64,000 nt of DNA, from NCBI RefSeq assembly GCF_008806975.1, contig NZ_CP031728.1, forward strand, positions 992,001 through 1,056,000, in the 5' to 3' direction. The stretch's first letter is position 1. Every line of letters starts with the position of its first letter. The DNA is from Cellvibrio sp. KY-GH-1 (lineage in GTDB: Bacteria > Pseudomonadota > Gammaproteobacteria > Pseudomonadales > Cellvibrionaceae). Below are positions 16,260-56,115 of the stretch, piece after piece. The translations under genes and the position numbers were made by a program. A model generated the notes under the pieces. It did no database searches, was not told where the DNA came from, and worked only from the letters and a program-made list of their open reading frames with translations.

Positions 16260-16263
16260 TCGA

Positions 16264-37038: not shown

Positions 37039-37791
37039 ATGCTAAGCAATGACCAAATCGCAAATTTTAAAAAATGGGGTTTTCTGGTATTGCCGGGATT
37101 CACCCATACTGGCTTTTGCTCGTCAATGCTCAACCTCGTTGAGGAACACTTAAGCAAAAGCGATTTCCCAATCGAGTATGAGGCAGATGTCGGGTATCCT
37201 GGTGCGCCGGCTTCACGTAGCGCTAAAGGCGGATTAACACCTCGACGTCTATTGGCTGCGACTGAACGAGATCCGCGGTTTTTATCATGGGCGACTCATG
37301 AATCTCTACGTGAGATTATGCATCAGCTGTTAGGGACATCGGTCTATCTTTCACAATCGCACCATAACTGTATTATGACCAAGCACCCAGAGCATTCCAG
37401 TAGAACAGGATGGCATCGAGATAGTCGTTACTGGCATTTCGCTCAACCTGAATTGGTATCTGCGTGGCTTGCGTTAACGCCCGAACATGCGGACAACGGA
37501 TGCCTTTGGGTTTTACCCAATTCCCACCGCTGGGAAATTGAGCCATTTCAGCTTGATGAAAAGCAATTTTTGCGTACTGATTTTGCAAAAAATAAAGACT
37601 TATTGGCACACGCTACGGCGATTGAATTAAATCAGGGCGATCTGCTGTTATTTCACAGTAATCTCTTTCACGCTGCGGGAAAAAACAATACGGATGAAAC
37701 AAAATGTTCTCTAGCATTTACCTATCGCGCTGAAAGTAATGCGCCCATTCCCAGAAGCCAATCAACCAAAAAACCGGACATTTTGATATGA
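37039..37791 (+). CDS. phytanoyl-CoA-dioxygenase-family (PhyH) Fe(II)/2-oxoglutarate oxygenase
   Basis: A 250-residue protein of the PhyH family. The facial triad is visible as GWHRDSRYWHF (H126, D128) and LFHSNLFHAAGKN (H211), with an Arg/Ser-bearing SLAFTYR near residue 230 for 2-oxoglutarate. Such enzymes hydroxylate small molecules such as lipids, ectoine or intermediates of natural products. It starts three bases after the dehydrogenase stop and ends the operon. The pairing with an isocitrate-dehydrogenase-like enzyme is striking because that reaction would supply its co-substrate. Confidence 0.85.
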   Translation: MLSNDQIANFKKWGFLVLPGFTHTGFCSSMLNLVEEHLSKSDFPIEYEADVGYPGAPASRSAKGGLTPRRLLAATERDPRFLSWATHESLREIMHQLLGTSVYLSQSHHNCIMTKHPEHSSRTGWHRDSRYWHFAQPELVSAWLALTPEHADNGCLWVLPNSHRWEIEPFQLDEKQFLRTDFAKNKDLLAHATAIELNQGDLLLFHSNLFHAAGKNNTDETKCSLAFTYRAESNAPIPRSQSTKKPDILI

Positions 37792-37916: not shown

Positions 37917-39071
37917 TTAGAGCCTAAACAACCAATATTTTTCAAACAGAATTTTTCCGAGGTGCAGCATCCTTCCCGGCGGCTTTAATTTGATATCAGG
38001 GTTAGGTTCTGCGTAGAAATTACCTTTTCCCATTCCTGCCATGCCATCACCAATTTCAAGGAAACATTCGCCGTAACCTGCAAAGACAGTTCTGTTTCCC
38101 GATCCTTTGATTTCGGAAGCAATGTTATTCGCAACGACTTCCGCTTGACCGTGAGCTAACACACCCGCTTTAGGTAATGGTTTGCCATTGGATAAAGGAA
38201 TACCGGTGATATCGCCAATGGCAAATACATTGGGAAATTTGGTGGCCAATGTTTGACGATCAACCGGAATCCATGGACTCTCACCCAGCAGGCCCGCTTC
38301 ACGAATCACAGTTGGTGCTCGGTGTGGAGGAATATAAACGAGAAGATCAAAAGTAGTCGTCGTTTCGTTGTTGAAAATAATGGCGCGCTCTTCCGGGGCG
38401 ATTTCCTTCACTGCATGTTGAGGGAAATACTTAACACCTTTGCTTTCTACCATTTGACGTACTTGTTGCGATACTTCGGGGCCAGTTACTGGCATAGGGC
38501 CAGGTTCCGGTGAGTAAACTTCAACACTCACTTTTGATGATAATCCACGTTTGCGGAAATCAGATTCGAGCAGCATCGCTGCCTCGTAAGGTGCAGCTGG
38601 ACATTTGAACGGCATGGAGCAAACTAGCACAACCACTTTTCCGCTGGTAAGTTTTAGACCCGCATCCCTTATTGCTTGGGCACCTTCCAATGTGTAGAGG
38701 TTATGTCCTGCTGCTGTTAGACCAGGTACGGTTTCTGGAGCGAGCTCTGCACCGGTGGCAATAATTAAATAATCACCGTGATATTGTTTGCCATCCACGA
38801 GGACCGCTTTTTTCTCTGGATCGATTTTTTCAATATTCCCGTGAATAACCTCGATACCTTTTTTGGCCAGGCTATTAATCGGTTTTGATATTTGTTTGGC
38901 GTTCCTATCGCCAGAAGCGATCCATAGCAGCGATGGCGGAAAAATATGATCGGTCAGCCTATCAATTACCACCACGCGATGTTCTTTGGATAATTTTTTG
39001 CGTAACTCGGTTGCCGTTACAATGCCGCCAATTCCACCACCGAGAATCAGGATCGTTTTTCCAGTAGCCAT
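37917..39071 (-). CDS. SQR-like FAD/NAD(P)-binding oxidoreductase
   Basis: About 384 residues from the ATG at 39071 (AAGGTAAG upstream). Two-dinucleotide-binding-domain flavoprotein: FAD motif ILILGGGIGGIVTATEL, second Rossmann GKVVVLVCSMPFKCPAAPYE, and FAD-binding VFAIGDITGIP. Three cysteines stand out: C151 and C157 in VCSMPFKC, in the place of the first catalytic Cys of sulfide:quinone oxidoreductases, and C336 in GYGECFLE, near the second. The C-terminus GKILFEKYWLFRL is amphipathic, as in SQR membrane anchors. It likely oxidises sulfide or a persulfide and passes electrons to quinone. Last gene of the ABC-transporter operon, 33 bases after the transglutaminase-like gene. Confidence 0.8.
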   Translation of the reverse strand: MATGKTILILGGGIGGIVTATELRKKLSKEHRVVVIDRLTDHIFPPSLLWIASGDRNAKQISKPINSLAKKGIEVIHGNIEKIDPEKKAVLVDGKQYHGDYLIIATGAELAPETVPGLTAAGHNLYTLEGAQAIRDAGLKLTSGKVVVLVCSMPFKCPAAPYEAAMLLESDFRKRGLSSKVSVEVYSPEPGPMPVTGPEVSQQVRQMVESKGVKYFPQHAVKEIAPEERAIIFNNETTTTFDLLVYIPPHRAPTVIREAGLLGESPWIPVDRQTLATKFPNVFAIGDITGIPLSNGKPLPKAGVLAHGQAEVVANNIASEIKGSGNRTVFAGYGECFLEIGDGMAGMGKGNFYAEPNPDIKLKPPGRMLHLGKILFEKYWLFRL

Positions 39072-39104
39072 TTTCTTACCTTTTTCAATGTTAGGGATGG
39101 GCAA

Positions 39105-40025
39105 TTAGATATCGGTAAAGCTCAGTTTCTTTTCGAAATACACCGCTCGACCAGAGTCGGTTTCAATTACTGGGTCTGTGAAAAAGTTGAGCGGATCATC
39201 AATAGTTCTGCCAGGCAATATCAGGTCGCGGCCATAGCTCAACAGGAACCGGTTTTCGTCTATTGAGCCAAAATAATAATCACGAAGATCCGTTTTTTGT
39301 GCCGCTTCAGAACAATCAGCGGGAATCCAGCCTATGCCGTGAACATAAAAACTGGTCCAGCAGTGATAGCCACATTTAAATGCAGTGATGTCGCCCTGGG
39401 TCATCCCTGTGGGAAATGCCATACCGATTTCAAACTGACCGGGTACGCCACAGGCACGAAGGATGGCAAGAAATAATGAGTGGAAATCTGTGCAATTGCC
39501 TTTGCCAATGGAGCAGGCAAATTCAGCATCACCGTTGCCCCAGCCATCACCGGATTTATCGTATTGCATATGTTCCAATACATGGTCATACGCCGCTTTG
39601 GCGATATCGAGGGCATTGGAATGTTGCTCTTTAATGTTGCGGGCAATTCCGAGAATATCGGCAGTAAATTGAATCAGTTTGTTGGGTTGCAATTGTGGCT
39701 GATGATGTAATTGCCAACCGGAATGCGTTATTTCGGTAAATTGATTGAAGTCCGTTGTACGTTCACGGCGAGTTGCTATGGTCGTAACGACCAAATCAAT
39801 ATTATCGATTTTTTCGGTATCGAGGTTTGCGCACAATATGGCATTACCGTAGGTAGCTTCGTATTCAATGCGGTAATCGATATTGGTTTGGACATCAATT
39901 GCATGAATGTCCTGGTCGCTCGTTGCACGGGGAAAAGGAACCCATAAATTAATTGCTTTTGCCGATTTGGGAAAATCGGGCACTTTGACATCATAAGTTG
40001 TTCGGAATCGGCGACTCTTACTCAT
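39105..40025 (-). CDS. transglutaminase-like cysteine protease-fold protein
   Basis: 306 residues, no signal peptide, so cytoplasmic. The N-terminal beta domain (LWVPFPRATSDQDIHAIDVQ) leads into the transglutaminase core with the full catalytic triad: C178 in GKGNCTDFHSLF, H221 in GYHCWTSFY and D237 in WIPADCSEA. Such proteins are amidases, peptidases or cyclisation enzymes as often as cross-linkers. A cytoplasmic copy placed between an ABC importer and an SQR-like enzyme could cleave the imported compound, for example an amide or gamma-glutamyl bond (inference). The start has a strong ribosome site (GGAGAGAG). Confidence 0.82.
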   Translation of the reverse strand: MSKSRRFRTTYDVKVPDFPKSAKAINLWVPFPRATSDQDIHAIDVQTNIDYRIEYEATYGNAILCANLDTEKIDNIDLVVTTIATRRERTTDFNQFTEITHSGWQLHHQPQLQPNKLIQFTADILGIARNIKEQHSNALDIAKAAYDHVLEHMQYDKSGDGWGNGDAEFACSIGKGNCTDFHSLFLAILRACGVPGQFEIGMAFPTGMTQGDITAFKCGYHCWTSFYVHGIGWIPADCSEAAQKTDLRDYYFGSIDENRFLLSYGRDLILPGRTIDDPLNFFTDPVIETDSGRAVYFEKKLSFTDI

Positions 40026-40106
40026 GGATTCTCTCTCCGTCGATAAATTCCGAGGCGAGCGTGTTAGGCATCGCCTCGAATTGTGAGCAGTTAAGCGTTG
40101 TTACGT

Positions 40107-40994
40107 TTACTTCAATAACCCGGTATCACGAGCCACTTTTTCAATCGAATCGAAATCAGCTTGGCTCGCTGCGACAAACACTTTTGCGCCTTGTAAATCC
40201 AGTACCGCTTTTTGTTGTGGGTCTTTCGGATCAAGGTTCAAAAATGCATCTTTGAATTTACTTACCAATTCAGGTGCTAATCCTTTGCGGGCCGCCCACA
40301 CATAATCCACGTACTCGGGGGAAGTCCACACCAATTTGACTTTCTTGGTGTCCACTTTTCCTTCGGCCAGCATGCGATCCCAAACTTCGATATTGAGTGC
40401 GCCACCTTGAACTTTTCCGGATTCAACCAGTTTTACGGTTGCGTCGTGGGCGCCGCTGTACACCGGTAAACCGGCAAAGTCTTTCTCTGGATTAATGGTC
40501 AATTGAGATAATAAAAAGTGACGTGGCATCAAATGGCCAGACGTGGAGCTCTTGGAACCGAAGGCGAATGATTTGCCTTTGAAGTCTTCTGGCTTTTCAA
40601 TGCCTGATGTAGTGCTGGCAATGAAAACACTTTTGAATTTCCTATCAATGTCGCGCATGGCCAGTGGCTCAGCGCCCGCGAGGTGGCGAGCTTGTACAAA
40701 TGTAAAACCACCTAACCAGGCAAAATCAATTTTCCCAGCAGACAGCGCTGATACCGCCGCGCCGTAGTCTGTCACTGGAACATAAGTAACTTTCTTACCC
40801 AGTTTTTTTTCCAAGTATTCAACCATGGGCTGGTTTTTACGAGCCAGCTCAGTGGGGTTTTCATCAGGGATACCAGTCACGCGAATAACATCATCGGCGG
40901 AGTAAGCGATAGATGACGTAAATAAACTGGCACCGACGAGCAATGTAGCGATCATTCGCTGCCAGGGTTTGCACAATAAAACGAAGGGTTTCAT
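40107..40994 (-). CDS. PhnD-like ABC transporter substrate-binding protein
   Basis: About 295 residues from the ATG at 40994, preceded by AAGGAG. Signal peptide MKPFVLLCKPWQRMIATLLV through TSSIAYS, cleaved before ADDV. The mature protein is a type II periplasmic-binding fold of the phosphonate/phosphite group: VTDYGAAVSALSAGKIDFAW, SKSSTSGHLMPRHFLL, YSGAHDATVKLVESGKVQGG, and DPQQKAVLDLQGAK. The SSTSG loop is the anion-binding segment. Family members bind phosphonates, phosphite and other tetrahedral oxyanions; nothing else in this operon is a phosphonate-degrading enzyme, and sulfur genes surround it. Confidence 0.88.
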   Translation of the reverse strand: MKPFVLLCKPWQRMIATLLVGASLFTSSIAYSADDVIRVTGIPDENPTELARKNQPMVEYLEKKLGKKVTYVPVTDYGAAVSALSAGKIDFAWLGGFTFVQARHLAGAEPLAMRDIDRKFKSVFIASTTSGIEKPEDFKGKSFAFGSKSSTSGHLMPRHFLLSQLTINPEKDFAGLPVYSGAHDATVKLVESGKVQGGALNIEVWDRMLAEGKVDTKKVKLVWTSPEYVDYVWAARKGLAPELVSKFKDAFLNLDPKDPQQKAVLDLQGAKVFVAASQADFDSIEKVARDTGLLK

Positions 40995-41041
40995 AAAAGC
41001 TCCTTTTGTAAGGTCAGGTTTGTGAGTTGGGGTTAATCCTT

Positions 41042-43144
41042 TCAAGCAATGGTGGTCTGCAACTGGGTAGGCATTAACGCATCCGCTTGATTATTTTTTT
41101 TCAGGGCACTGCATTCGTTATCCTCGACGAATCGAATGTTTTCGCGTTGTGCGATTTCAATCATTGCGGATAAGAATTCGGGAGTCGGCTCGATAAAGCC
41201 CAGATAATTTTTTTCACAATATGGGGCAGCGTTTTGGGCTTCGTTTGGACATGCGCGCGCGCCGATGACCGTGGACAATTTTCCATCGGGGTACACGACG
41301 ACCAGTTGAACCATCAACCCGGTGGGCAAGGTTTTATCCATGGCAATCGTCAAGCCGTCGGACGATACGGATATGGGTTTAATGACGGTGAATGCCGGTG
41401 CGGCACCGCAGCGACAACACAATTGCGGCTTCTCTACGATAGGAAGCTGGCAAGGAAAAGGTGCGATGGCTGTACTTGATCCTGAAAACAAAAGTGATAA
41501 TCTCTGCAATAAATTTGGCTCGCAGGAAGGACCATTCAAAATGCGTTTACGCAAACGATCACCGACATAATCGACGCCGGTTACCACAGCAACCATAACT
41601 ACAAGCAACACAATCAGATCGCTGATGTGAAATAAACTGATCGAGGTATAAAGCGAATCGCCAATACCGCCCGCACCCACAAAACCCACGGTAGCCGTTG
41701 CTCGCACATTCACTTCAAAACGGTAGAGGGTAAATGCCAGTACGCGAGGGTTCACTTGCGGAAGAACAGCATAAAGCCAGGTTGATAAACCGCTTGCTCC
41801 GCTGGCCTGCATGGCTTTCGCAGGACCCGGTTCTACTTCCTCATACACATCAGTGTAGAGTCGTCCCAGTACGCCGATGTTATGAACGGCGATGGCCAGT
41901 ATCCCTGCGAGTGCACCGGGGCCCACCCAAACCACAAATACCAGCGCAAGTGTAAGCTCAGGCATTGCGCGGGTGACCTGCAAAAAGAATTGCGAACTAC
42001 CTTGCAGCGCGCGTGACATCCATAAAGACACCCCGCGTTTACCATAGGTGTTCTCCAGATAGCTTTTCGTTATCAGGGATTTGGTGGAAAGTGGCGCAAG
42101 GAAAAATGCAAAGACAGCCGCAAGCAAGGTAGCGATCCAGGCCATCAATAATGTTTGCCACACCAGGGATGCAGTCTTTTCTAAAAACTCATCACTTAAA
42201 TCAAATGCGTTTGCACGGGGCAAATTATTCCAGCTTCCACTAAGCAAATCCGCCCAGGGAATATCGAGGTAGGCAACGCTCGCGATTGCACCGGCAACAG
42301 CAAACAGCATCGCCCATTTCACGGGATGGCGACGCAGGAAAGCGCTCACCCATTCCAATGCAATAACAAATACCAAAACAGCGATTAGTGTCGTCGCTAA
42401 TTTATCGAATTCGAGATAGCGAATGCTCAGCGCAATTTCACTGCCCAAACCGCCAGCACCGACTACGCCGAGAATTGTGCCTGTGCGGATGTTGCACTCC
42501 ATTCGGAATAACGCGTAGGCAACCCACTGGCGTTTTACCTGCGGCAAGATGCCGTGCATTAATATGCCCCAGCGTCCGACACCGGCTGAACGTAATCCGC
42601 CTACTATGCGACTATCAACCGCTTCGGCCAATTCCGCGTAGAGTTTGCCGATGGAGCCACCCACGGTTAAGCCAATCGCGAGTACGGCAGCGCCGGGGCC
42701 AAGCCCCAGAATTTGCACAAAGAGATATGCCCAGACAATTTCCGGAATTGAACGAAAAAATCCGAGCGTAAAGCGCGAGAGTGATCGAGCAGTTGCGACC
42801 ACTACCGACTGGCGTTTTCCCTGACGACCAGGTGGGTCAGGTAGTTCCGGGATGCGAATCGCAAAAACGGCGAGGCTAATGCCGATGACGACCGCAAATA
42901 CGGTACCGAGAATCCCGACAAATAAACTTTCAAACGAAAGCAAAAAAATACGTTGGAGAAAATCGGCTGATAAATTCGGATGCAATAAGCCACTGAGTAG
43001 TTCACCGGCGTTATGTATGCCGTCGCGATCAAACAGTGCGCCCGGATTTACCCGTGTGCCTTCCATCGCCAAAATAAATGTGAGAGCAACCGCGCACCAA
43101 ATCAGGTAGCGTTTCAACTCCTGTGTGCGATCAAACCCGTTCAT
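41042..43144 (-). CDS. fused double PhnE-like ABC permease with Cys-rich C-terminal domain
   Basis: About 700 residues from the ATG at 43144, which overlaps the end of the ATPase gene by 14 bases. Two complete PhnE-type permease modules are joined: each has an EAA-like coupling loop (GILMHGILPQVKRQWVAYAL in the first, WLYAVLPQVNPRVLAFTLYR in the second) followed by a GAGGLG or GAGGIG motif. A single polypeptide thus supplies both halves of the channel. After about residue 545 comes a soluble extension of about 155 residues with LCCRCGAA, ARACPNEAQNAAPYC and DNECSALKK, which I do not recognise and which is not part of usual PhnE proteins. Possibly a thiol or metal sensor on the cytoplasmic side. 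Confidence 0.85.
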   Translation of the reverse strand: MNGFDRTQELKRYLIWCAVALTFILAMEGTRVNPGALFDRDGIHNAGELLSGLLHPNLSADFLQRIFLLSFESLFVGILGTVFAVVIGISLAVFAIRIPELPDPPGRQGKRQSVVVATARSLSRFTLGFFRSIPEIVWAYLFVQILGLGPGAAVLAIGLTVGGSIGKLYAELAEAVDSRIVGGLRSAGVGRWGILMHGILPQVKRQWVAYALFRMECNIRTGTILGVVGAGGLGSEIALSIRYLEFDKLATTLIAVLVFVIALEWVSAFLRRHPVKWAMLFAVAGAIASVAYLDIPWADLLSGSWNNLPRANAFDLSDEFLEKTASLVWQTLLMAWIATLLAAVFAFFLAPLSTKSLITKSYLENTYGKRGVSLWMSRALQGSSQFFLQVTRAMPELTLALVFVVWVGPGALAGILAIAVHNIGVLGRLYTDVYEEVEPGPAKAMQASGASGLSTWLYAVLPQVNPRVLAFTLYRFEVNVRATATVGFVGAGGIGDSLYTSISLFHISDLIVLLVVMVAVVTGVDYVGDRLRKRILNGPSCEPNLLQRLSLLFSGSSTAIAPFPCQLPIVEKPQLCCRCGAAPAFTVIKPISVSSDGLTIAMDKTLPTGLMVQLVVVYPDGKLSTVIGARACPNEAQNAAPYCEKNYLGFIEPTPEFLSAMIEIAQRENIRFVEDNECSALKKNNQADALMPTQLQTTIA

Positions 43145-43949
43145 AGTTTGCCTCGCTGCGTTCTTCGCTTCCCTGATACAGCAAATCCAATGCATCCGGC
43201 GTTACTTCTGCGGGCTTGGCATCCAGCACGAGGGTGCCTTCACGCAGGCCAATGATGCGGTCGCAGCGGTGCATGATGGCGTCGAGCCAGTGGGTACAAA
43301 AAACAAGGGTGACACCGCGCTCTTTTGCCTGGTTAAGAATAATTTCAGTCACTGCGCGTGCCGTGGCTGGATCGAGCGATGCAGTGGGTTCGTCAGCCAA
43401 CAAAGTCGTGGGATCTGAAATCAATGCACGCGCAATGGCGACACGCTGCATTTGGCCACCGCTTAAATCGCTGGCGGATCGCCATTGGTGCTCGCCAATG
43501 GAAAGCGATTCCAATAATGAATGGACTGGCTGTTTTTCTACGGGCCATAGTGCAGAGGCCATCACTTTGTGCCATGGCCAGAGTGGCAATTTCCCGGCCA
43601 CCACATTTTGATGGACCGACAGCTGCGGCACGAGTAAATGGGTTTGTTCAATGATGCGTGAATAAGCACGATGAAAACGCAATTCTGCCGCAGACATTTT
43701 TGCGAGGTCTTTGCCATCGGCGAGTACACGCCCGTGCGTCGGTTTAAGCACTCCGGCCAGTAATCGGATCAATGTGGATTTTCCACCACCGCTGGGGCCG
43801 ATAAGAGCGACGGTTTCGCCGGGGCGAATCGTCAGATTGAGATTGTTAATCGCTGCCCGCTTACCCCAATAACGCGAAACGGCCTTGAGTTCGAGGACGG
43901 GAGCTTGATGACTCGCAGAGCGCGGGCCATTTGAAAATTGTGGCTTCAT
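43131..43949 (-). CDS. PhnC-like ABC transporter ATP-binding protein
   Basis: A 272-residue ATPase: Walker A LIGPSGGGKSTLIRLL, Q-loop region, signature DLSGGQMQRVAIARAL, Walker B TTLLADEPTASLD, and H-loop VFCTHWLDAI. Closest in pattern to PhnC-type ATPases of phosphonate/phosphite importers. First gene of a five-gene minus-strand operon (ATPase, double permease, binding protein, transglutaminase-like, SQR-like). A long palindrome about 120 bases before the start is shared with other promoters of the region. Confidence 0.9.
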   Translation of the reverse strand: MKPQFSNGPRSASHQAPVLELKAVSRYWGKRAAINNLNLTIRPGETVALIGPSGGGKSTLIRLLAGVLKPTHGRVLADGKDLAKMSAAELRFHRAYSRIIEQTHLLVPQLSVHQNVVAGKLPLWPWHKVMASALWPVEKQPVHSLLESLSIGEHQWRSASDLSGGQMQRVAIARALISDPTTLLADEPTASLDPATARAVTEIILNQAKERGVTLVFCTHWLDAIMHRCDRIIGLREGTLVLDAKPAEVTPDALDLLYQGSEERSEANYERV

Positions 43950-44069
43950 ACGAAGACTCCTTTCCCCCGTATTGGGGATTTGCTGCTCCTACAGACGGTT
44001 CTCCTTAAACATGCCCACAGCGTATGGCTGCGTATTTGTCCAGGTACGGCGTCCAAGAGAGTGGTTTAT

Positions 44070-44103
44070 TTCAAGCAATCAATTATTTAAGTGATTGCTT
44101 GAA
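44070..44103. promoter_or_regulatory. 34-bp palindrome, candidate ArsR-rhodanese operator of the ABC operon
   Basis: Perfect 12-bp arms TTCAAGCAATCA and TGATTGCTTGAA with a 10-base A/T-rich centre. The inner part (ATCA, TTAAATAATT on the other strand) is shared with the palindrome at 45473-45492 and with the half-site at 45285-45305. Position upstream of the PhnC-like start suggests control of that operon by the regulator at 44600-45274. Confidence 0.7.
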
Positions 44104-44114
44104 TATTTATTATT

Positions 44115-44133
44115 AAAAAACGCCTTATCGGCG
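44115..44133 (-). terminator. intrinsic terminator of the dsrE gene
   Basis: On the minus strand, CGCC, loop GATAA, GGCG is followed by TTTTTT, about 20 bases after the dsrE stop. The stem is short, so efficiency is uncertain. Confidence 0.6.
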
Positions 44134-44152
44134 CATCACTTTCTCAGAAGGT

Positions 44153-44506
44153 TTAAAACACCATGACTTTATCGGCCCAGAGTGTCCAATCAGTCAGTTC
44201 TTCCAGGGTGCCGCGATGCGTACCTTCAGCCAATTCCTCGGCTGTCATACCGCGTGCATCCATACAGGTACCGCACACACCGATTTGACCTTCACGGCGA
44301 ATGATCGGGTTCAGCATCAACTCAACGTTGTAATAACCTTGGGGAACTTTCTGGCCGCCTTTTGCGCAAACAGCCGCGTCACCCATCAAAAATACACGTA
44401 CTTCATCAGTGCCACGTTTGGCAATGGAGCCTGCCAGACGTAAACCGTTGTAGCTGCGCTCGGTGCCGTATGGTCCGTCATTCAATATAAATAGAATATT
44501 GCTCAC
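44153..44506 (-). CDS. DsrE/DsrF-family sulfur-relay protein
   Basis: A 117-residue cytoplasmic protein of the DsrE/F fold, starting from GTG at 44506 with GAGG upstream. Conserved cysteines are C47 in DAAVCAKGGQK and the pair C78/C81 in IGVCGTCMDARG, where sulfane sulfur is carried in this family. DsrE-type proteins accept and pass persulfide sulfur, typically from rhodaneses. Placed downstream of the ArsR-rhodanese gene on the same strand with a 93-base gap, so it is probably part of the same sulfane-sulfur response. Confidence 0.85.
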   Translation of the reverse strand: MSNILFILNDGPYGTERSYNGLRLAGSIAKRGTDEVRVFLMGDAAVCAKGGQKVPQGYYNVELMLNPIIRREGQIGVCGTCMDARGMTAEELAEGTHRGTLEELTDWTLWADKVMVF

Positions 44507-44599
44507 TTCAGTTTCCTCTTGATTTCCTGGTGGTTATTGCAGGTACCGATCAAAAGGAACTTTGCTATCGCTTAGCGCAATCGCTTACCGACTTTCCTT

Positions 44600-45274
44600 T
44601 TAAGCAGCACCTGTTTGTATAGCAAAACCTCTGGCCACCCAATCAGCGACACCTTCTTCCCAGCGTGTAGCCTGATAACCTTTTTGGTTCAGCAAATTCA
44701 CGGCTTCTATCGACATGACACACAGTGGTCCACGACAGTAAGCAACAATTTCACGGCCTGGCGGCAATTCAGTAATTTTCTGCTCCAGCGCTTCCAGTGG
44801 AACCGACAGAGCACCAGGGATATGGCCCGCCATAAATTCTTCAGTTGGACGCACATCCAATACCGTTACTTCGCCGCGCTTTACGCGCTCAAGCAACGTG
44901 TTTTTATCTGTTTTTTCCAGCACACCGCGATCACGCAAAAATGCGTCTGTCACCGCGCGAACTTCCAGCAACCGGGTTTCTCCGACTCGCCGAAGGATGC
45001 CGCAAAGCCCTAGGACTTCCTGATCCGCAAGCCGGTAAATGATATTTACCCCATTGCGTTCCGAATCGATTACGCGCGCCGCGCGCAATACCTGCAAATG
45101 CTGGGACGTATTCGCAATGCTCTGGTTAATTTCTTTGGCGATTGACTCAACGGTTCGCGGCCCCTGGCTTAACACATCCAGCAACTCAAGGCGGATCGGG
45201 CTAGCCAACGCTTTTCCAATACGAGCCAGTTGCTCATACAGCGAATCTTTAAATTGCCGGCAAGAAGAAGTCAT
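44600..45274 (-). CDS. ArsR-family regulator fused to a rhodanese domain
   Basis: 224 residues from the ATG at 45274. Residues 10-105 form the winged helix (LASPIRLELLDVLSQGPRTV, recognition region NTSQHLQVLRAARVI); residues 125-220 form a rhodanese with the active-site loop C180-RGPL-C185 (AYCRGPLC) and the HIPGALSVP motif. C5 and C91 are further possible sensing thiols. Fusion of repressor and rhodanese suggests direct sensing of sulfane sulfur, comparable in idea to the persulfide sensors SqrR and BigR (established for those families, inferred here). It lies between two operons that share its candidate operator. Confidence 0.9.
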   Translation of the reverse strand: MTSSCRQFKDSLYEQLARIGKALASPIRLELLDVLSQGPRTVESIAKEINQSIANTSQHLQVLRAARVIDSERNGVNIIYRLADQEVLGLCGILRRVGETRLLEVRAVTDAFLRDRGVLEKTDKNTLLERVKRGEVTVLDVRPTEEFMAGHIPGALSVPLEALEQKITELPPGREIVAYCRGPLCVMSIEAVNLLNQKGYQATRWEEGVADWVARGFAIQTGAA

Positions 45275-45284
45275 AGATTTTCCA

Positions 45285-45305
45285 TTTATCAATTGATCGC
45301 TTGAA
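45285..45305. promoter_or_regulatory. half-operator upstream of the ArsR-rhodanese gene
   Basis: On the minus strand the sequence reads TTCAAGCGATCAATTGATA, matching one arm and centre of the 44070 palindrome (TTCAAGCAATCAATT) with one change. It ends about ten bases before the regulator's start codon, the right place for autorepression. Confidence 0.6.
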
Positions 45306-45472
45306 TTATAGGTTCCAGGCGACAATCCTCAAATAGCTATCTACCGCTCAAGCACAAATTCACCCAAAAATAGCGTTGTTACCCATAAAAAAGCGCCTAA
45401 AGCCATCACTAACTTTATGACGCCGAAGCCCGTTCCTTGACAATCTATGTGAGATGGATATTCTAGTCAAGC

Positions 45473-45492
45473 ATTCAATTAAATAATTGAAT
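45473..45492. promoter_or_regulatory. candidate operator of the RND-desulfurase operon
   Basis: Perfect 9-bp arms ATTCAATTA and TAATTGAAT with a 2-base centre, preceded by TCAAGC. The core TTAAATAATTGA is the same as in the 44070 palindrome read on the other strand. It sits 70 to 90 bases before the RND gene and divergently from the regulator. Confidence 0.65.
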
Positions 45493-45561
45493 ATCAAATA
45501 ATGACGCTACTCTTGCCAAATATTGAATAAGCAGGCGTGGCTTAAAGGACTCCTTGTCGAT

Positions 45562-47922
45562 ATGCGTAAACACACCCTAGTGGAATTCGCGACCCACCAT
45601 CCCCGGTGGATTTTTGTCGCTACCTTACTGATTACTGCGCTCTTCTGTACCCAGTTTCCCAGGATCACACTGGATACCAACCCGAAAAACATGTTGCCCC
45701 ATGACTCCCCCGTGCGGGTCTGGAATGACGGGATTGAACAGACATTCCGGTTGTATGAAGACACAATCGTGGTGGCGATTCATAACGAAAAAGGGGTAAT
45801 CAATACCAACACCCTCAAGAAAATCCATGTTGTTACCGAACAAATCCTTTCGATTGACGGAGTCGCCGCGCGTGATTTGGTGAGCTTTAACACCATCGAC
45901 CATATCAGTGCGGACGGTGAAGGCTTGGATATCGCCCCGCTAATGGCCGAGGCCCCCAACACCCCTGAAGAGTTGTCTGCGTTCCGGGCCAAACTGATTG
46001 GTAACCCGTTATTTGCGGACCGGATAATTTCCAGTGACGAGACCATGGCCGCGCTCTATATACCGCTGGAGGATGGCGCTAATGGCAAACAAGTTGCGGA
46101 CAAGATTCGCGACATCATTACAAGCCAGGGCGAAGGCGATGATTTTTACGTGGCTGGAGACCCGGTAGTCAGGGATACCTTCGGTGCAGACATGTTCACC
46201 ATGATGGGATTATTTGCGCCCATCGCGGGCATGATCATGTTTATTGCCATTCTGTGGATGTTTGGCAGTTTGTCCCTTGCAATGTCGATGATGGCGGTGG
46301 CCATGGCCAGTATCATTTGCAGTATGGGATTACTGATCGGGTTGGGATTTCCGGTGCACATTATGAGTTCCATGGCACCGGTATTTTTAATGGCCATTGC
46401 AACGGACAGCATCCATATTTTTAACGAGTTTTATCACCGCTTCCGTCAGGGTGGCAATAAACAACAAGCAATCCACGAGACCATGGACGCGGTCAGTCGC
46501 CCGGTGCGTTATACCGCACTGGCAACCGCCGCCGGATTTGCCGTATTGCTTTTCATGGAAATTATTCCCGTTAAAGTATTTGGCGGCGTCATTGTATTTG
46601 GCACCTTGCTGCTGCGTCTCCTCAGCTTCACGCTCATCCCTGCCTTACTGATATCGATTAACGAGAAAAAAATCCTTTCCGCCGTCGCACGCGAAACGCA
46701 CAAACAGCAATCCAAAAAAAGCTGGTTACAGAATCTGGCGGATGTGGCGGTCACCCATCCGAAAAAAAATGTCATGCTGGGTTTGTTGCTGACTGTTGTT
46801 TCCGCAGTCGGTATTACACAGATAACGATCAATAACAATTTGGTGAAATGGTTTACCCACAACAGTGAAGTACGCATCGCCGATGAGAAGATCAATGAAT
46901 CACTCGGTGGTACCGCATCCGGATACATCGTTGCCATTTCACCCAATGCGGATGGCATCAAAACACCGGAAAGCCTGCAATACATTGATGGTTTGCAAAG
47001 GCATCTCGAATCCATGCCAGAGGTTGGAAAAACGTTTTCGATTGTCGATTACGTAAAACGTATTAACCGTGTACTCCATGAGGACGCTCAGGATTATGAA
47101 GTAATTCCGACTGACGCTGACACCATTGCCCAATACCTGTTTTTGTTCGGCATGTCCGCGAAACAATCGGATCTGGACAACGTGGTGGACTATCCCTTCC
47201 AGCAGGCCAACATCTGGCTGCAATTAAAAACCTGGGATGCGGGGGCAATGCGCAATGTCATCCATGCCGTAGAAGAATACCAACACGAAAATCCGATAAA
47301 CCTCGAATTCAAACCCGCAGGAACTGCCTACTTCAATGTGGTGTGGAATGATGAGGTGCTCTGGGACATGCTGAAGGGATTTGTCCTGGCATTGCTGGTA
47401 GTATTTATTCTGCTGGCTATCAATTTCCGCTCAATCAAGTGGGCGATTGTCGGGTATATCCCGCTACTGTTTACCATCATGTTGATTTACGCCGTGATTG
47501 GCTTCTCGGGCAAAGATTTTGATATGCCGATTTCGGTCTTGTCATGTTTGTCGCTGGGCATGGCGGTGGATTTCTCGATCCATTTCATCAGCCGTTTGCG
47601 TCAGCGTATAACGGAAACCGCCGCGACCGGTGAATCACTGGCGGACAATTTGCGCTGGACTGCTGCACGGCCCGGCAAAGGCATTATGCGTAACGCTATT
47701 CTTTTTGCCGCCGCCTTTTCGGTAATGATGTTTGCCCCACTTACGCCTTACATCACTGTGGGCGCATTCATCGTGAGTATGATGCTCGTCAGCGCACTAG
47801 TCACTTTATTGTATTTGCCCGCATTGATTTTGTTATTGCAAGGCTGGCTGTTCACCACGTCCACATCTGACCATTCACCTTCAACTCTTTCTGCAACACC
47901 CTCTGTCGGAGAGCGCGCATGA
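45562..47922 (+). CDS. RND/MMPL-superfamily exporter (HpnN-like)
   Basis: About 786 residues from the ATG at 45562; a TTG at 45523 is in frame. Two repeats, each with one leading helix (RWIFVATLLITALFC; NVMLGLLLTVVSAVGI), a periplasmic domain and a five- to six-helix bundle (MGLFAPIAGMIMFIAILWMF; MLKGFVLALLVVFILLAINF). It resembles the MMPL/HpnN type of RND proteins that move lipids or hydrophobic compounds to the outer membrane, rather than the drug-efflux type, and has no fusion-protein partner. Overlaps the next gene by ATGA. Opens a four-gene operon with a cysteine desulfurase. Confidence 0.85.
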   Translation: MRKHTLVEFATHHPRWIFVATLLITALFCTQFPRITLDTNPKNMLPHDSPVRVWNDGIEQTFRLYEDTIVVAIHNEKGVINTNTLKKIHVVTEQILSIDGVAARDLVSFNTIDHISADGEGLDIAPLMAEAPNTPEELSAFRAKLIGNPLFADRIISSDETMAALYIPLEDGANGKQVADKIRDIITSQGEGDDFYVAGDPVVRDTFGADMFTMMGLFAPIAGMIMFIAILWMFGSLSLAMSMMAVAMASIICSMGLLIGLGFPVHIMSSMAPVFLMAIATDSIHIFNEFYHRFRQGGNKQQAIHETMDAVSRPVRYTALATAAGFAVLLFMEIIPVKVFGGVIVFGTLLLRLLSFTLIPALLISINEKKILSAVARETHKQQSKKSWLQNLADVAVTHPKKNVMLGLLLTVVSAVGITQITINNNLVKWFTHNSEVRIADEKINESLGGTASGYIVAISPNADGIKTPESLQYIDGLQRHLESMPEVGKTFSIVDYVKRINRVLHEDAQDYEVIPTDADTIAQYLFLFGMSAKQSDLDNVVDYPFQQANIWLQLKTWDAGAMRNVIHAVEEYQHENPINLEFKPAGTAYFNVVWNDEVLWDMLKGFVLALLVVFILLAINFRSIKWAIVGYIPLLFTIMLIYAVIGFSGKDFDMPISVLSCLSLGMAVDFSIHFISRLRQRITETAATGESLADNLRWTAARPGKGIMRNAILFAAAFSVMMFAPLTPYITVGAFIVSMMLVSALVTLLYLPALILLLQGWLFTTSTSDHSPSTLSATPSVGERA

Positions 47923-48722
47923 TTTCCCTGGTAAAAACACTGACCCAACGCAGCTTATTTGTTCTCAGTGCCGTATTGACGCCATCGATATGCATGGCAA
48001 TAGAGCCTACGCAAATTGTGCAACAGTCACTGGATGCGACCTACTACGCGGGCAATGACATGCGTACAAAAGTCAGCATGAAATTGATCAATCCCAAAGG
48101 CGATGTTCGTGAGCGTGAAATGACGATGCTGCGAATCAATCTTGCGGGTGGTGAGCAACGTTATTACACCTATTTTCATCGCCCGACTGATGTGAAAGGA
48201 ACGGCTTTCCTTGTGCAAAAATTTCCAGGCAAAGAAGATGATCGCTGGATTTTTGTACCTGCCATTAAATTGGTGAAACGCATTGCTTCTGATGACAAGC
48301 GCTCATCGTTTGTTGGTTCCGATTTCACTTACGAAGACGTATCCGGTAGAGAAGTTGCCGATGAAAGCCATACATTGGTGGGCGAAGAAGTGTTTGAAGG
48401 ACGTCCGGTTTACCGCATTGAAAGTAAGCCGGTAAAAGCCATCGACTACAGTCGTCGCGTGTCGTTAATTGATAGAGAACGCTTGCTGCCCTTGAGTGAA
48501 GAATATTTTGATTTGCGCAATCGGCCATCACGCGTATTCAGTGCAGTGAAAGTGGAACAAGTCTCCGACGTCTGGACCATTACGGCGCGCACTATGAAAA
48601 ATCTGGAAACGGGTTATCGCACTGAAGTGGTATATGACGAAATCGCTTACAACATTGGATTAGAGGCTGATATTTTTACGGAACGGTATCTGCGTAATCC
48701 ACCACAACAGTGGGTGAAGTAA
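47919..48722 (+). CDS. LolA-like outer-membrane lipoprotein-sorting protein
   Basis: 267 residues with a signal peptide (SLFVLSAVLTPSICMA, cleaved before IEPT). The mature part is the LolA/LolB-type beta-sheet fold common beside MMPL/RND pumps (MTMLRINLAGGEQRYYTYFH, RWIFVPAIKLVKRIASDDKR, FVGSDFTYEDVSGREVAD). Presumed to carry a hydrophobic cargo through the periplasm from the pump. Start overlaps the pump stop; four bases to the next start. Confidence 0.82.
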   Translation: MISLVKTLTQRSLFVLSAVLTPSICMAIEPTQIVQQSLDATYYAGNDMRTKVSMKLINPKGDVREREMTMLRINLAGGEQRYYTYFHRPTDVKGTAFLVQKFPGKEDDRWIFVPAIKLVKRIASDDKRSSFVGSDFTYEDVSGREVADESHTLVGEEVFEGRPVYRIESKPVKAIDYSRRVSLIDRERLLPLSEEYFDLRNRPSRVFSAVKVEQVSDVWTITARTMKNLETGYRTEVVYDEIAYNIGLEADIFTERYLRNPPQQWVK

Positions 48723-48726
48723 ACCC

Positions 48727-49959
48727 ATGCTGTTTAGAAAAACCGGAACGTTTTTGTCGGGTTGTTTGCTCTTGCTAGGCAGTATGCAATTACATGCCGA
48801 CATTAACGGCATGGTGCAATACCACTCAGCGGTGCGCACTGACACAGATTCATGCTCCACCACAGATTGCGAAATACCATTTTCGGAATTACGTGGCCAG
48901 GTAAAAGCTGAAAAATCATGGCGAGATAGTCAGCATTCGTTCACTGCCAACATCGAATTAATTCACGATTTCGTGTTTGATGAAACTGACTTGAACGCCC
49001 GAGAAATTTATTGGGATTGGGCTGGTGATGCAACCCAACTGCGCACCGGACGTCAGATGATTACCTGGGGCACCGGCGATATGTTGTTTATCAACGACAT
49101 ATTCGCCAAAGACTGGAATGCCTATTTTGGTGGCATGCCGATGGATTTCCTTAAGCTCCCAACGGATGCCATTAAATTTGATTGGTATCCGGGAGCAACC
49201 ACGATTGAAACGGTGATCGCCCGATTTGACGCAGACCATGCGCCTGAGGCACAGCGATTCGACGTACAAATGCCGCAAATGCCGTCTCCAATTTTTTTTC
49301 AAACACCGGATGATCAACCGGACGAACTGGAATACGCCGCAAAAGTATCGCGCAATTTTTCAGGGTGGGATGTCAGTGGTTATGCCTCCCGAAGTTATTG
49401 GCGTAGCCCTGCCTATCACCCCAATGATTCAGGCACATTGGTGTCCTATCCGCGACTCAATACTGTCGGCGCGAGCGCCACGGGGCAGATACAAAATGGC
49501 GTATTCAATCTTGAGGCGGGTTATTACCATTCACCGGAAGACTCGGCAGGCTCCAATCCATTTATTCAAAATAGCCAAAGCCGTCTCTTAACCGGATATT
49601 CCCGTCAAGTCTGGACTGACGCTACTCTGGGCGTGCAGTTTTATGTTGAACGCATGGAAAATTATTCAATTTATCTCGCTACGGTGCCAACAGCTGCCGC
49701 CGCAAAAGAAGAATGGAACAGGGTTGCCACAGTGCGCTTCACCCAATTTTTTTTACACCAGACATTAACGTTTAATCTGTTCAGTTATTGGGGATTAAGC
49801 GATAGCGACCGATTTTTACAATCCACAGTCCGATACGCCTTTAACGATCATCTCTGGGGCGAAATCGGGACCAATATTTTTTCCGGAAATCAGCAGGGAA
49901 TGTTCGGTGCGTTTGATCGCAACGATAATATCTACCTGACTCTGCGTTTCGCTTATTAA
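48727..49959 (+). CDS. outer-membrane beta-barrel protein (DUF1302-like)
   Basis: A 410-residue exported protein (signal peptide FLSGCLLLLGSMQLHA, then DINGMVQ). The mature part has the alternating pattern and terminal aromatic residue (YLTLRFAY) of outer-membrane barrels, with repeated segments such as LRTGRQMITWGTGDMLFIND, a motif shared by DUF1302-type porin-like proteins. It completes a pump / periplasmic carrier / outer-membrane set. Cargo unknown. Confidence 0.72.
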   Translation: MLFRKTGTFLSGCLLLLGSMQLHADINGMVQYHSAVRTDTDSCSTTDCEIPFSELRGQVKAEKSWRDSQHSFTANIELIHDFVFDETDLNAREIYWDWAGDATQLRTGRQMITWGTGDMLFINDIFAKDWNAYFGGMPMDFLKLPTDAIKFDWYPGATTIETVIARFDADHAPEAQRFDVQMPQMPSPIFFQTPDDQPDELEYAAKVSRNFSGWDVSGYASRSYWRSPAYHPNDSGTLVSYPRLNTVGASATGQIQNGVFNLEAGYYHSPEDSAGSNPFIQNSQSRLLTGYSRQVWTDATLGVQFYVERMENYSIYLATVPTAAAAKEEWNRVATVRFTQFFLHQTLTFNLFSYWGLSDSDRFLQSTVRYAFNDHLWGEIGTNIFSGNQQGMFGAFDRNDNIYLTLRFAY

Positions 49960-49968
49960 AGGTTTCTT

Positions 49969-51102
49969 ATGACTACGCCAATCTATCTTGATTACAACGC
50001 AACAACACCTATCGCACCGGAAGTGATTAACGTCATTACACAGTGTCTGACAGAATTTGGTAATCCATCATCCAGCCACGACTATGGTCGTCGCGCCAAT
50101 GAAATAGTTCAGCAAGCACGTGCACATGTTTCCCACTTAATTTCTGCTAACCCATCCGAAATCATTTTCACAGGCTGTGCTACGGAATCCAATAACCTCG
50201 CCATCCTCGGTATGGCACGTGCCTGTAATAATAAAAAGCACATTATTACCAGTGCTATTGAACATCCCGCTGTTATGCAACCGTGTTTACAATTGCAACG
50301 AGAAGGTTGGGAGCTAACGATACTGCCTGTGGATGCCAGTGGATTAGTTGATCTGAAAGTATTGGCAGAAAAAATTCGTCCCGATACTGCCCTGATTAGC
50401 ATCATGCATTCCAATAATGAGATTGGAACCATTCAACCGATTGCAGATATTTCACAGATCGCGCGTAAGCACGGTGTGCTGTTGCATGTGGATGCAGCGC
50501 AGTCGATCGGAAAAGTGCCAGTTGATGTGAACGAACTTGGTGTGGATGCACTGACAATTGCAGGCCACAAGTTTTATGCCCCGAAAGGTGTAGGCGCCTT
50601 GTATGTGCGTGAAGGTACCCCGATAAATTCCATCATGTACGGCGCCGGTCATGAACGAAATCTGCGCCCTGGAACGGAGAACGTAATTGCCGTGGCGGCA
50701 CTGGGCGAAGCAGCGCGCTTGGCAGCGAATCGATTGCCAGAAGCCGAACAATTTTTAAGAGAAATACGTGATGAATTACATTCACGCCTGAGTACTGAAA
50801 TTCCTGGTCTCGCATTGAATGGTCATCCTGAATTCAGACTGCCTAACACGCTTAATATTTCGTTCCCCGGCGTCAGTGGTCGCGCGCTTCTTGATAATGC
50901 AGGAGGTGTAGCCGCTTCGGTGGGATCAGCCTGTCATTCTCATGGGGATGCAGTGAGTGGGGTATTGGCAGCAATAGGTGTATCGGCTGACCGCGCGCGC
51001 GGTTCAGTAAGATTGTCGGTCGGCGTATCAACAACTGAAGACGAAATTAAACAAGCCAGTCAAATTTTAACGAGCAGCTGGAGGGCGATTAGTACTCAGT
51101 AA
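49969..51102 (+). CDS. class V aminotransferase, cysteine desulfurase (NifS/IscS-like)
   Basis: A 377-residue PLP enzyme with AAGG before the ATG. LDYNATTPIAPEV start, SSHDYGRRANE, HVDAAQSIGKVPVD (PLP Asp) and ALTIAGHKFYAPKGVGALYV with the Schiff-base Lys. The sulfur-accepting Cys is in VGSACHSHGDAVSGVLAAIG, in the loop of group I desulfurases. It is not linked to iscU or other Fe-S scaffold genes but follows the outer-membrane gene by nine bases in the operon controlled, I infer, by the ArsR-rhodanese protein. It may release sulfur from an imported or exported thiol compound. Confidence 0.9.
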   Translation: MTTPIYLDYNATTPIAPEVINVITQCLTEFGNPSSSHDYGRRANEIVQQARAHVSHLISANPSEIIFTGCATESNNLAILGMARACNNKKHIITSAIEHPAVMQPCLQLQREGWELTILPVDASGLVDLKVLAEKIRPDTALISIMHSNNEIGTIQPIADISQIARKHGVLLHVDAAQSIGKVPVDVNELGVDALTIAGHKFYAPKGVGALYVREGTPINSIMYGAGHERNLRPGTENVIAVAALGEAARLAANRLPEAEQFLREIRDELHSRLSTEIPGLALNGHPEFRLPNTLNISFPGVSGRALLDNAGGVAASVGSACHSHGDAVSGVLAAIGVSADRARGSVRLSVGVSTTEDEIKQASQILTSSWRAISTQ

Positions 51103-51268: not shown

Positions 51269-53587
51269 CTATTTACCGCCACAACTACCGCAGCACACAG
51301 TGTCTTTATTTTCAGGCGTCTTAGCTGGATCGATTGTTAACACACTGCCTTTTGATGAGGACAATAAACCCAGCACAACCTGCCAACTCACGGCTAAAGC
51401 ACCCACGATAAATACGACATCACCGAACGTGCGGACCCAGCGCAAGGTCACGAGTAAATCTGACTGCATAAATGATTCACTGCGTGCGTACCACAACCCC
51501 TCGGAAGCACTTGCAACAAACTGGATAATCCCCACTGGCAGTAAGCTGGTGAACAGCATTAGTGCCAAACCTATGTTCATCCACCAAAACGCCACTTTCA
51601 TTAATCTATCGCTAAACACTAATTGCGGGCGAATATAGCGAAGGATTAACAGCGAGAAACCCAGCGCCAGGAATCCATACACGCCAAACAAAGCTGCATG
51701 GGCATGAGTGGGTGTAGTATTTAAACCTTGCACATAGTAAAGCGCGATCGGCGGGTTGATCATAAATCCAAGCACACCCGCACCGAGCATGTTCCAAAAT
51801 GCAACCGCGACAAAAAAGGTCAAGGGCCATTTTATTTGTTGCATCCAGAGTGCGCGATTTTTCAAGCGCCAGTTTTCCCAAGCTTCATAACCTAGCACTA
51901 CAAGCGGTACGACTTCGAGTGCACTAAAGGTTGCCCCCACGGCCATTACCGGCGTAGTGGTGCCAGAAAAGTACAGATGATGAAAAGTGCCCGGCACGCC
52001 GCCCAACATAAATAACGATGCCGATGCCAGCGTGGCCGCCGTTGCCATGGGCCGCGATACCAACCCCATACTGCAGAAGATAAACGCGAGTGCAGCGGTT
52101 GCAAACACTTCAAAAAAACCTTCAACCCAAAGATGCACAACCCACCAACGCCAATACTCCATTACAGAGAGATGTGTGCGTTCACCGTAGAACAAACCGG
52201 CGCCGTAAAATAATCCAATGGCGACAACAGATGCGGTTAACAAAGCTAATAAATTTTTATCGCCAGGTTGTCTTAACGCCGAGGTAATACCGCGCATCAT
52301 TAAAAATAACCAGAGTAAAATTCCAATAAACTTTCCTATTTGCCACACTCTGCCCAAATCAACGTACTCATAACCTTGGTGACCAAACCAGAAACTTAGA
52401 TTGGTCGGTATGCTATGTGCGATGGCAAGGATATTACCGATAAACGAACCCACCACCACTGCAATCAACGCCCAGAAGAGAATATCCACCCCTAGCTTTT
52501 GATACTTAGGATCTTTACCGCCGTTAATAATTGGCGCAAGGAATAATCCAGCCGCGAGAAAACCAGTAGCAATCCAAAACATGGCTGCCTGAATGTGCCA
52601 AGTACGTACCAGCGAATAAGGGAACCACTCAGACACATTAATGCCGTAAAACGTTTGCCCTTCCACAGTGTAATGCGCGGTGAACCCGCCCAGAAAAACC
52701 TGGAAAGTAAAGAGAGCGACTACAACAAATAGATATTTTCCCAATGCGCGCTGCGAAGGCGTGACGGCAAAGGTTGTAATAGGATCGACATCTGGTGCAA
52801 CGGTCTCCTCCTCATTTTCTTTGCGCAAAAACGCCCATGCCCATACCAGAGCGCCTACACCTAAAACTAACAAGACAACGCTGGCAATTGACCACACAAT
52901 ATTTTCCGCTGTGGGCCTGTTGTCGATCAGCGGTTCATGGGGCCAGTTATTAGTGTAAGTCGCCTCACCCGGTGTGCGCTCGGTAGCTGCTGCCCATGCG
53001 GTCCAAAAGAAAAACTCTGCCATGCGTTCGCGTCGCTCAGGGTCAGGCAGAGTGTTTTCTTTCATCCCATAATTTTCACGCGTTTTTTGTAGCTCTGGGG
53101 CATCACTGAATAACCGCTGATAGTAGTCTGCGGTTTGCGCAATTGCCTGCGCGCGCCGGGCTGAGATGAATACGCTGTCTGTATCTGCACTATAGGTATT
53201 CGTGCGATAAGCAATTTTTAAATCGTATTGCAGCGCGTTTTGTTGCGCGCCATCCAAGTCAGCATAGGCTTTACCAAAAGCATCTTGTGCGGCTAACTCC
53301 AGCCAGTTCAGTAATTCGCGATGCAACCAATCCGCAGTCCAATCCGGTGCCTGATAAGCGCCATGCCCCCAGATCGAACCCAGTTGCATGCCGCCAACAG
53401 ATTGCCACGCCGTTTGCCCATCCAGAATAGAATCGTGAGTCATCAATACTTCACCACTTTCACTGACAACCTGTGCTGGGATTGGTGGTGCATTGCGATA
53501 AACCTCGGTGCCAAAATAACCGAGCAGTGAAAAGGTAACGGCGAGCACACCAATTAAGATAAACCACAGCTTGCGATACTCACCCAT
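51269..53587 (-). CDS. norB: quinol-dependent nitric oxide reductase (qNor)
   Basis: A 772-residue single-subunit NO reductase. The extra N-terminal segment (about 1-220, with GGMQLGSIWGHGAYQAPDWT) that corresponds to a NorC-like domain without heme marks it as qNor, taking electrons from quinol; helices of the heme-copper core follow, with metal-binding His in RTWHIQAAMFWIA, VVHLWVEGFFEVFA, GTFHHLYFSG and THAHAALFGVYGF. It reduces 2 NO to N2O in the inner membrane. The C-terminal CCGSCGGK is Cys-rich. It overlaps the end of the ytfE-type gene by eight bases, so both are in one NO-responsive transcript. Confidence 0.94.
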   Translation of the reverse strand: MGEYRKLWFILIGVLAVTFSLLGYFGTEVYRNAPPIPAQVVSESGEVLMTHDSILDGQTAWQSVGGMQLGSIWGHGAYQAPDWTADWLHRELLNWLELAAQDAFGKAYADLDGAQQNALQYDLKIAYRTNTYSADTDSVFISARRAQAIAQTADYYQRLFSDAPELQKTRENYGMKENTLPDPERRERMAEFFFWTAWAAATERTPGEATYTNNWPHEPLIDNRPTAENIVWSIASVVLLVLGVGALVWAWAFLRKENEEETVAPDVDPITTFAVTPSQRALGKYLFVVVALFTFQVFLGGFTAHYTVEGQTFYGINVSEWFPYSLVRTWHIQAAMFWIATGFLAAGLFLAPIINGGKDPKYQKLGVDILFWALIAVVVGSFIGNILAIAHSIPTNLSFWFGHQGYEYVDLGRVWQIGKFIGILLWLFLMMRGITSALRQPGDKNLLALLTASVVAIGLFYGAGLFYGERTHLSVMEYWRWWVVHLWVEGFFEVFATAALAFIFCSMGLVSRPMATAATLASASLFMLGGVPGTFHHLYFSGTTTPVMAVGATFSALEVVPLVVLGYEAWENWRLKNRALWMQQIKWPLTFFVAVAFWNMLGAGVLGFMINPPIALYYVQGLNTTPTHAHAALFGVYGFLALGFSLLILRYIRPQLVFSDRLMKVAFWWMNIGLALMLFTSLLPVGIIQFVASASEGLWYARSESFMQSDLLVTLRWVRTFGDVVFIVGALAVSWQVVLGLLSSSKGSVLTIDPAKTPENKDTVCCGSCGGK

Positions 53588-54260: not shown

Positions 54261-54333
54261 GATGTCACTCTCCGGCTGCAATAAAACGACGGTCATTAAG
54301 GGGAACCCGGCAACTCTGCCAAACAACCCAGTT

Positions 54334-54356
54334 AAGATGTATTGTAAATGCATCTT
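54334..54356. promoter_or_regulatory. NsrR-like binding site 1
   Basis: The 23-base stretch consists of AAGATGTAT, centre TGTAA and ATGCATCTT. It closely fits the published NsrR palindrome (AANATGCATTT and complement). Lies between the divergent ytfE-norB and DUF454-nnrS-nsrR operons. Confidence 0.88.
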
Positions 54357-54359
54357 ATA

Positions 54360-54382
54360 AAGATGTAAAATGAATACATGTT
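54360..54382. promoter_or_regulatory. NsrR-like binding site 2
   Basis: AAGATGTA, centre AAATGA, ATACATGTT: a weaker second copy three bases after site 1, closer to the plus-strand operon. The two sites could let NsrR control both divergent operons separately. Confidence 0.7.
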
Positions 54383-54422
54383 TAAAGGTAAAGATTTTAA
54401 TACCGTCCACTTCGCGCTATAG

Positions 54423-56103: not shown

Positions 56104-56115
56104 GAAGAGAAATCT

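Follow-up and report, generated by a model that had tools for sequence, protein, structure and literature searches.

Organisation of the gene cluster

A 64,000 nt stretch of contig NZ_CP031728.1 of Cellvibrio sp. KY-GH-1 (the window) was analysed for a gene cluster at positions 37917-51102, in which an ATP-binding cassette (ABC) importer stands together with sulfur-handling proteins and an ArsR-rhodanese regulator. The genome of the window (G000) consisted of a single contig of 5,762,391 bases with 100% completeness. The cluster comprised 11 genes in two divergent operons around the regulator gene. All the genes named in an earlier note on this DNA were present at the positions given there, although the note had counted ten.

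The left operon, on the minus strand, was arranged in the order ArsR-rhodanese regulator (44600-45325), DsrE-type sulfur-transfer protein with C47, C78 and C81 (44153-44506), PhnC-like ATPase (43131-43949), double PhnE permease fusion with a cysteine-bearing C-terminal tail (41042-43195), PhnD-like periplasmic binding protein (40107-41045), transglutaminase-like cysteine enzyme (39105-40025) and, as the last gene, a protein similar to sulfide:quinone oxidoreductase (SQR; 37917-39104). The right operon, on the plus strand, encoded an MMPL/HAE3-like resistance-nodulation-division pump (45523-47922), a LolA-like protein (47919-48722, PF17131), a probable outer-membrane protein assigned by eye and by gene position with no family match (48727-49959) and, lastly, a NifS/IscS-like cysteine desulfurase (49969-51102).

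Shared operator

Operator-like repeats were found at three promoters: upstream of phnC (44070-44105, a near-perfect inverted repeat), upstream of the arsR-rhodanese ATG (45281-45306, one half of the operator, minus strand) and upstream of the pump gene (45464-45492, plus strand). The phnC and pump sites were identical at 22 of 24 bases, which was equalled in 0 of 1000 dinucleotide shuffles, and the phnC and arsR sites at 17 of 20 bases, equalled in 2 of 1000. The arsR site falls within the longest open reading frame (ORF) of arsR, which has a TTG start at 45325; for the site to precede the gene, translation must begin at the ATG at 45274. This ATG, the likely start, was common to all three genomes compared (G000 and two other Cellvibrio genomes, G514 and G519). 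Compared to most of the spacer around them, all three sites were better conserved in G514 and G519; the two genomes are close kin, so that this conservation is nearly a single comparison. The operator is real, and the proposal of the earlier note that two operons beside the regulator share it was borne out.

A genome-wide search with the 15-base operator pattern TCAAGCNWTCAATTR produced 4 exact matches in G000, 3 in G514 and 4 in G519, and in each genome three of these were the cluster's own sites. The reversed-pattern control gave 0 exact matches in G514 and 0 in G519. The sole exact match outside the cluster in G000 (L216) sits inside an ORF, and G519 has one outside its cluster (L269). When up to one mismatch was allowed, 22 sites were found in G000, mostly within genes, compared to 3 for the reversed-pattern control. 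Four of the 22 were the cluster's three operators, the phnC site being represented by its two halves, and the other 18 included 16 inside ORFs of at least 150 codons and two (L220, L231) outside. The phnC site had a palindrome score of 0.87, which none of these 18 sites reached; one site inside an ORF (L233) scored 0.75, equal to the pump-promoter site. A wider regulon in G000 was rejected on the intragenic position of the 16 sites and on the palindrome scores. Since exact matches were almost confined to the cluster and one-mismatch sites were mostly intragenic, the ArsR-rhodanese protein seems to be a regulator dedicated to this one island.

Sulfur-handling, regulator and partner proteins

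The SQR-like protein matched the solved SQR 3szf over residues 17-393 (E 1.5e-33), and its C168 and C347 were aligned with cysteines of the solved chain. Its best NCBIfam match was NF049943, a narrow subtype (type III SQR, selenoprotein subtype), at 255 bits, below the cut-off of 525. By the match to solved SQR and the aligned cysteines it qualifies as a putative SQR. The SQR family is very large (at least 6492 matches) and thus unusable as evidence of co-occurrence.

The regulator contained an ArsR helix-turn-helix domain and a rhodanese domain with a CRGPLC motif. The cysteine pair C197/C202 of the rhodanese domain was common to all five sequences compared, C108 only to the Cellvibrio sequences among them and C22 not even to those. 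The pairing of ArsR-rhodanese with DsrE recurs elsewhere, once together with a desulfurase, and there without the other cluster genes. SQR, DsrE, desulfurase and ArsR-rhodanese are ordinary components of sulfane-sulfur metabolism, and the assignment of the locus to a sulfane-sulfur-type regulon in the earlier note agrees with this content. In having an ArsR-fold regulator beside SQR, sulfur-transfer and transport genes, the cluster resembles the regulons of the sulfane-sulfur repressors SqrR, BigR, YgaV, SoxR and sHdrR as described in PMC12423496. Unlike those repressors, the regulator here is fused to a rhodanese domain with cysteines of its own, and it is predicted to govern an oxyanion importer and a set of MMPL, LolA-like and outer-membrane proteins.

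The transglutaminase-like enzyme (PF01841, 75.5 bits) showed the superfamily core and the Cys-His-Asp triad, with C178, H221 and D237 unchanged across an alignment of 30 sequences, and no signal peptide was seen by eye. It was 16% identical to 3ISR, a transglutaminase-like putative cysteine protease. Close orthologues exist at 42-58% identity, one of them from a named genus, Ramlibacter, and three pairs of transglutaminase and SQR database proteins were on contigs of equal size (18607, 34597 and 30418), which is suggestive only. For distant relatives (33-38% identical; 78 of 80 loci listed, and L064-L066), the 18 commonest neighbour groups included no partner of a sulfur or selenium type, and the most frequent neighbour was an ABC ATPase (19 loci). 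All parts of the cluster are of known kinds, except for the role of the transglutaminase and the permease tail.

The permease tail (approximately residues 555-717; window 41042-41539), with a CCRCG motif, was present in G000, G514 and G519. It had no Pfam match, and its homologues were two database proteins of 128 and 140 amino acids on short contigs.

Importer family and its selenium-gene company

The binding protein passed the cut-off of TIGR04553, the "putative selenate" family (322 bits against 250), and failed that of PhnD (TIGR03431; 179 against 261.1). The PhnC-like ATPase likewise failed TIGR02315 (206.8 against 266.1), so that PhnE (385.9 against 216.7) was the only PhnCDE component to pass its phosphonate-importer cut-off. 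Scans of 19 proteins from the cluster and its surroundings found no phosphonate-degrading gene, as the earlier note had also stated, the rest of the genome not being searched; the only lead was a PhyH-type oxygenase (37039-37791) with 37 bits against the 500 needed for methylphosphonate hydroxylase. An ordinary phosphonate importer was rejected on these scores and on this lack of phosphonate genes.

The nearest named relative found for the binding protein, at 71% identity, was from Sphaerotilus sulfidivorans, where the locus on plasmid NZ_CP035710.1 has the order mnmH-phnC-phnE(double)-phnD-selD. The two proteins clustered together in the tree, along with the other Cellvibrio binding proteins (support 100/99), and the two loci share the double permease fusion and the C-E-D gene order. 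The Cellvibrio operon differs in having neither selD nor mnmH, in being preceded by an ArsR-rhodanese-type operator, in carrying transglutaminase and SQR genes where Sphaerotilus has selD and mnmH, and in the permease tail, which is not present in the Sphaerotilus relative.

A sample of 115 genomes of the order and 14 control genomes were scored for TIGR04553 and SelD. TIGR04553 was passed in 29 and SelD in 61 of the 115 genomes, and in 0 and 2 of the 14 controls, respectively. SelD exceeded its cut-off in all 28 other genomes with TIGR04553 compared to 33 of 86 without (Fisher p = 1e-8 when the window is included as the one exception). In the fetched stretches around these 28 importers (7.5 to 19.8 kb), selD or mnmH was near the importer in 19, and mnmH in one of four loci below the cut-off. 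Six of 18 further loci from a class sample, unscored for TIGR04553, had selD nearby. None of 32 importer loci in other genomes had a transglutaminase, DsrE, ArsR-rhodanese, desulfurase or pump of the cluster's kind, and a few had weak SQR-type matches (21-28%).

In the complete genome of the window, no protein exceeded the SelD cut-off, the best match having 77.6 bits against 125. An orphan SelD elsewhere in this genome was considered and rejected, since this best match is ThiL (268 bits against 184). SelD domains within oxidoreductase fusions pass the SelD cut-off as well: one such fusion was scanned and passed SelD (293 against 125), and failed the fusion model that marks proteins as not SelD (508 against 700). 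Both the selenium link of the family and the lack of SelD and MnmH had been overlooked in the earlier reading.

PhnD-like proteins without a PhnC or PhnE match nearby (L245, L246, L247, L248, L250, L252, L254) formed one clade and are perhaps sensors rather than importers.

Conservation of the cluster

Among the matches listed, close loci in named genomes were found only in two Cellvibrio assemblies. The binding protein was present in 4 of 21 Cellvibrio genomes, and the transglutaminase in 4 of 144 genomes of the family, which were the same four. G000, G514 and G519 carried the complete gene set. On a contig of 9 kb, G524 had the binding protein, SQR and a portion of the transglutaminase frame. 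As G514, G519 and G524 are mutually close (end branches of about 0.01 in the tree), the four carriers represent two lineages. Between these the 11-gene set was 67-89% identical and the three operator sites were kept, while the flanks differed. Co-conservation of the two operons, whose absence the earlier note had named in advance as grounds for refutation, was thus found within Cellvibrio (G514, G519).

The flanks of G514 and G519 were compared over about 11 kb past the end of the desulfurase gene and 16.5 kb past that of SQR. They matched just two non-cluster genes of the window: a HAD-type hydrolase in G519 (window 15627-16298, 55%) and an ABC ATPase in G514 (31%), the latter a PhnC cross-match. 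As cluster and operator were found again in two further Cellvibrio genomes where the flanks are not the same, we infer that the cluster is apparently a mobile island.

Binding pocket and candidate ligand

Selenite, phosphite and sulfite all have a pyramidal three-oxygen shape. The solved PhnD1 of Synechococcus MITS9220 (PDB 7S6G, chain 7s6g_A) was a TIGR04553 member with 338 bits. Its ligand and closure residues are named in PMC10284923, and the 11 residues compared were identical in the binding protein of the window and in the Sphaerotilus relative. According to the same source, Synechococcus PhnD1 proteins bind phosphite tighter than phosphate, the ligand was inferred to need three oxygens in a trigonal arrangement, the affinity for phosphite was termed fortuitous by the authors, and a role in constitutive phosphate transport was proposed for PhnD1. 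The Cellvibrio importer differs from it in being predicted to stand under sulfur control.

Judged from the sequence of the pocket, the importer most likely takes a pyramidal XO3 oxyanion. Selenite is the first candidate because of the genomic company of the TIGR04553 family; sulfite, thiosulfate or phosphite are possible substrates. A thiophosphate or an amidated thiol, as guessed in the earlier note, was abandoned: no evidence for either was found, the protein belongs to a family found in selD/mnmH company, and a pocket with residues of the three-oxygen type would argue against a bulky ligand.

Interpretation and alternative explanations

Tentatively, and at somewhat below even probability, the cluster is read as a mobile island for the response to reactive sulfur that has captured an importer of XO3 oxyanions, selenite first, whose substrate would be used without selenophosphate. 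The ArsR-rhodanese repressor would bind the one palindromic operator at all three promoters and would be released when its rhodanese domain is loaded with sulfane sulfur (or selenium), which would switch on both operons. The ABC importer, captured from a selD/mnmH selenium operon of the TIGR04553 kind, may still take up a pyramidal XO3 oxyanion, with selenite foremost. Inside the cell selenite would be reduced by thiols, DsrE, rhodanese and desulfurase could carry the chalcogen as per-sulfide or per-selenide, and SQR could oxidise sulfide or selenide, the whole route being independent of selenophosphate. The pump of the right operon with its LolA-like and outer-membrane partners may serve to export the product or to repair the envelope. 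We infer the sensing chemistry, the order of the reactions and the roles of transglutaminase and pump. A more specific version, in which selenite imported under a chalcogen-sensing repressor is carried as per-selenide and fixed or used through the transglutaminase and SQR as SelD-independent selenium use, appears quite improbable.

Several observations weigh against the preferred reading. MnmH had no match in the genome of the window (G514 and G519 were not searched), and SelD exceeded the cut-off in 0 of 21 Cellvibrio genomes, five of which were less than 90% complete or more than 5% contaminated. SelD, which the known selenium-use traits (selenocysteine, selenouridine and a selenium cofactor) require, and MnmH, which selenouridine needs in addition, thus seem to be lacking in the window's genome, so there is no known use for imported selenium, and selenite import without a use would be costly. 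In the DNA fetched around them, 9 of the 28 TIGR04553 members and 12 of the 18 class-sample loci lacked both selD and mnmH. Phosphite and phosphate are the ligands of those TIGR04553 members that have been characterised, the PhnD1 proteins of picocyanobacteria, and the paper on them makes no mention of selenium in its main text (PMC10284923). The cluster has been found in two lineages only, namely the window and three close relatives. Finally, no place for the transglutaminase and the pump is demanded by the evidence.

The captured importer may instead have been re-used for a sulfur oxyanion such as sulfite or thiosulfate, which would accept or donate sulfane sulfur; SQR would pass sulfur from sulfide to sulfite, with rhodanese and DsrE as the shuttle. 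This would suit the cytoplasmic partners assigned, which are sulfane-sulfur proteins, the lack of SelD over cut-off and the lack of a persulfide dioxygenase among the ten cluster proteins scanned; related ArsR repressors also answer to thiosulfate-derived sulfane sulfur (PMC12423496). The binding residues, however, are the same as in the selD/mnmH-linked relative, and PhnD1 reportedly selected phosphorus compounds when sulfur sources were screened as well (PMC10284923), and we consider this alternative rather unlikely. Import of phosphite or phosphate, as by picocyanobacterial PhnD1, is distinctly unlikely; the place of the importer in a sulfur regulon would then be due to chance or to a need for phosphate during sulfur stress. 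The TIGR04553 membership of MITS9220 PhnD1, the identical binding residues and the preference of Synechococcus PhnD1 proteins for phosphite (PMC10284923) speak for it. Many family members nevertheless cluster with selD and mnmH, the conserved operator ties the operon to a sulfur-type regulator, and no phosphite-oxidising gene was among the 19 proteins scanned.

It is also conceivable, though unlikely, that the genes have only the regulator in common, unrelated envelope and transport genes having been inserted beside an ArsR-rhodanese/DsrE/desulfurase module with no joint pathway. The occurrence of ArsR-rhodanese with DsrE, and once with a desulfurase, without the remaining genes is consistent with this, as are the size of the SQR family and the 32 importer loci that lacked the cluster's partners apart from the weak SQR-type matches. 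The retention of all 11 genes in two lineages, with three conserved operators despite differing flanks, argues against it.

The open-licence literature searched contained no report of the gene set, of a link between ArsR-rhodanese and TIGR04553, or of a TIGR04553 importer in a genome without SelD. The cluster is a natural case of this candidate family without SelD, beside a likely sulfur sensor, and its substrate can therefore be tested without a background of selenoproteins. The case is relevant, too, to the PhnD1 of marine picocyanobacteria, a protein that by its score falls into the same family and whose affinity for phosphite was called fortuitous (PMC10284923).

Other features of the neighbourhood

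A 121-residue rhodanese gene follows directly after SQR in G514 (L266 2489-2854) and G519 (L267 2476-2841) and was not present in the window. In G519, a Tn7-like set of TnsA, TnsB-like transposase and TnsD (Pfam assignments; L267 9989-18095) was located approximately 7 kb from the island, with a glmS-like gene, recognised by eye, beyond it. The G+C content was 0.525 at window 42001-44000, where the permease and ATPase are encoded, compared to 0.44-0.46 at 34-40 kb, which fits a foreign origin. Finally, a nitric-oxide defence block with NorB-like, YtfE, NnrS and an NsrR-like regulator adjoins the right side of the island at window 51269-56553.

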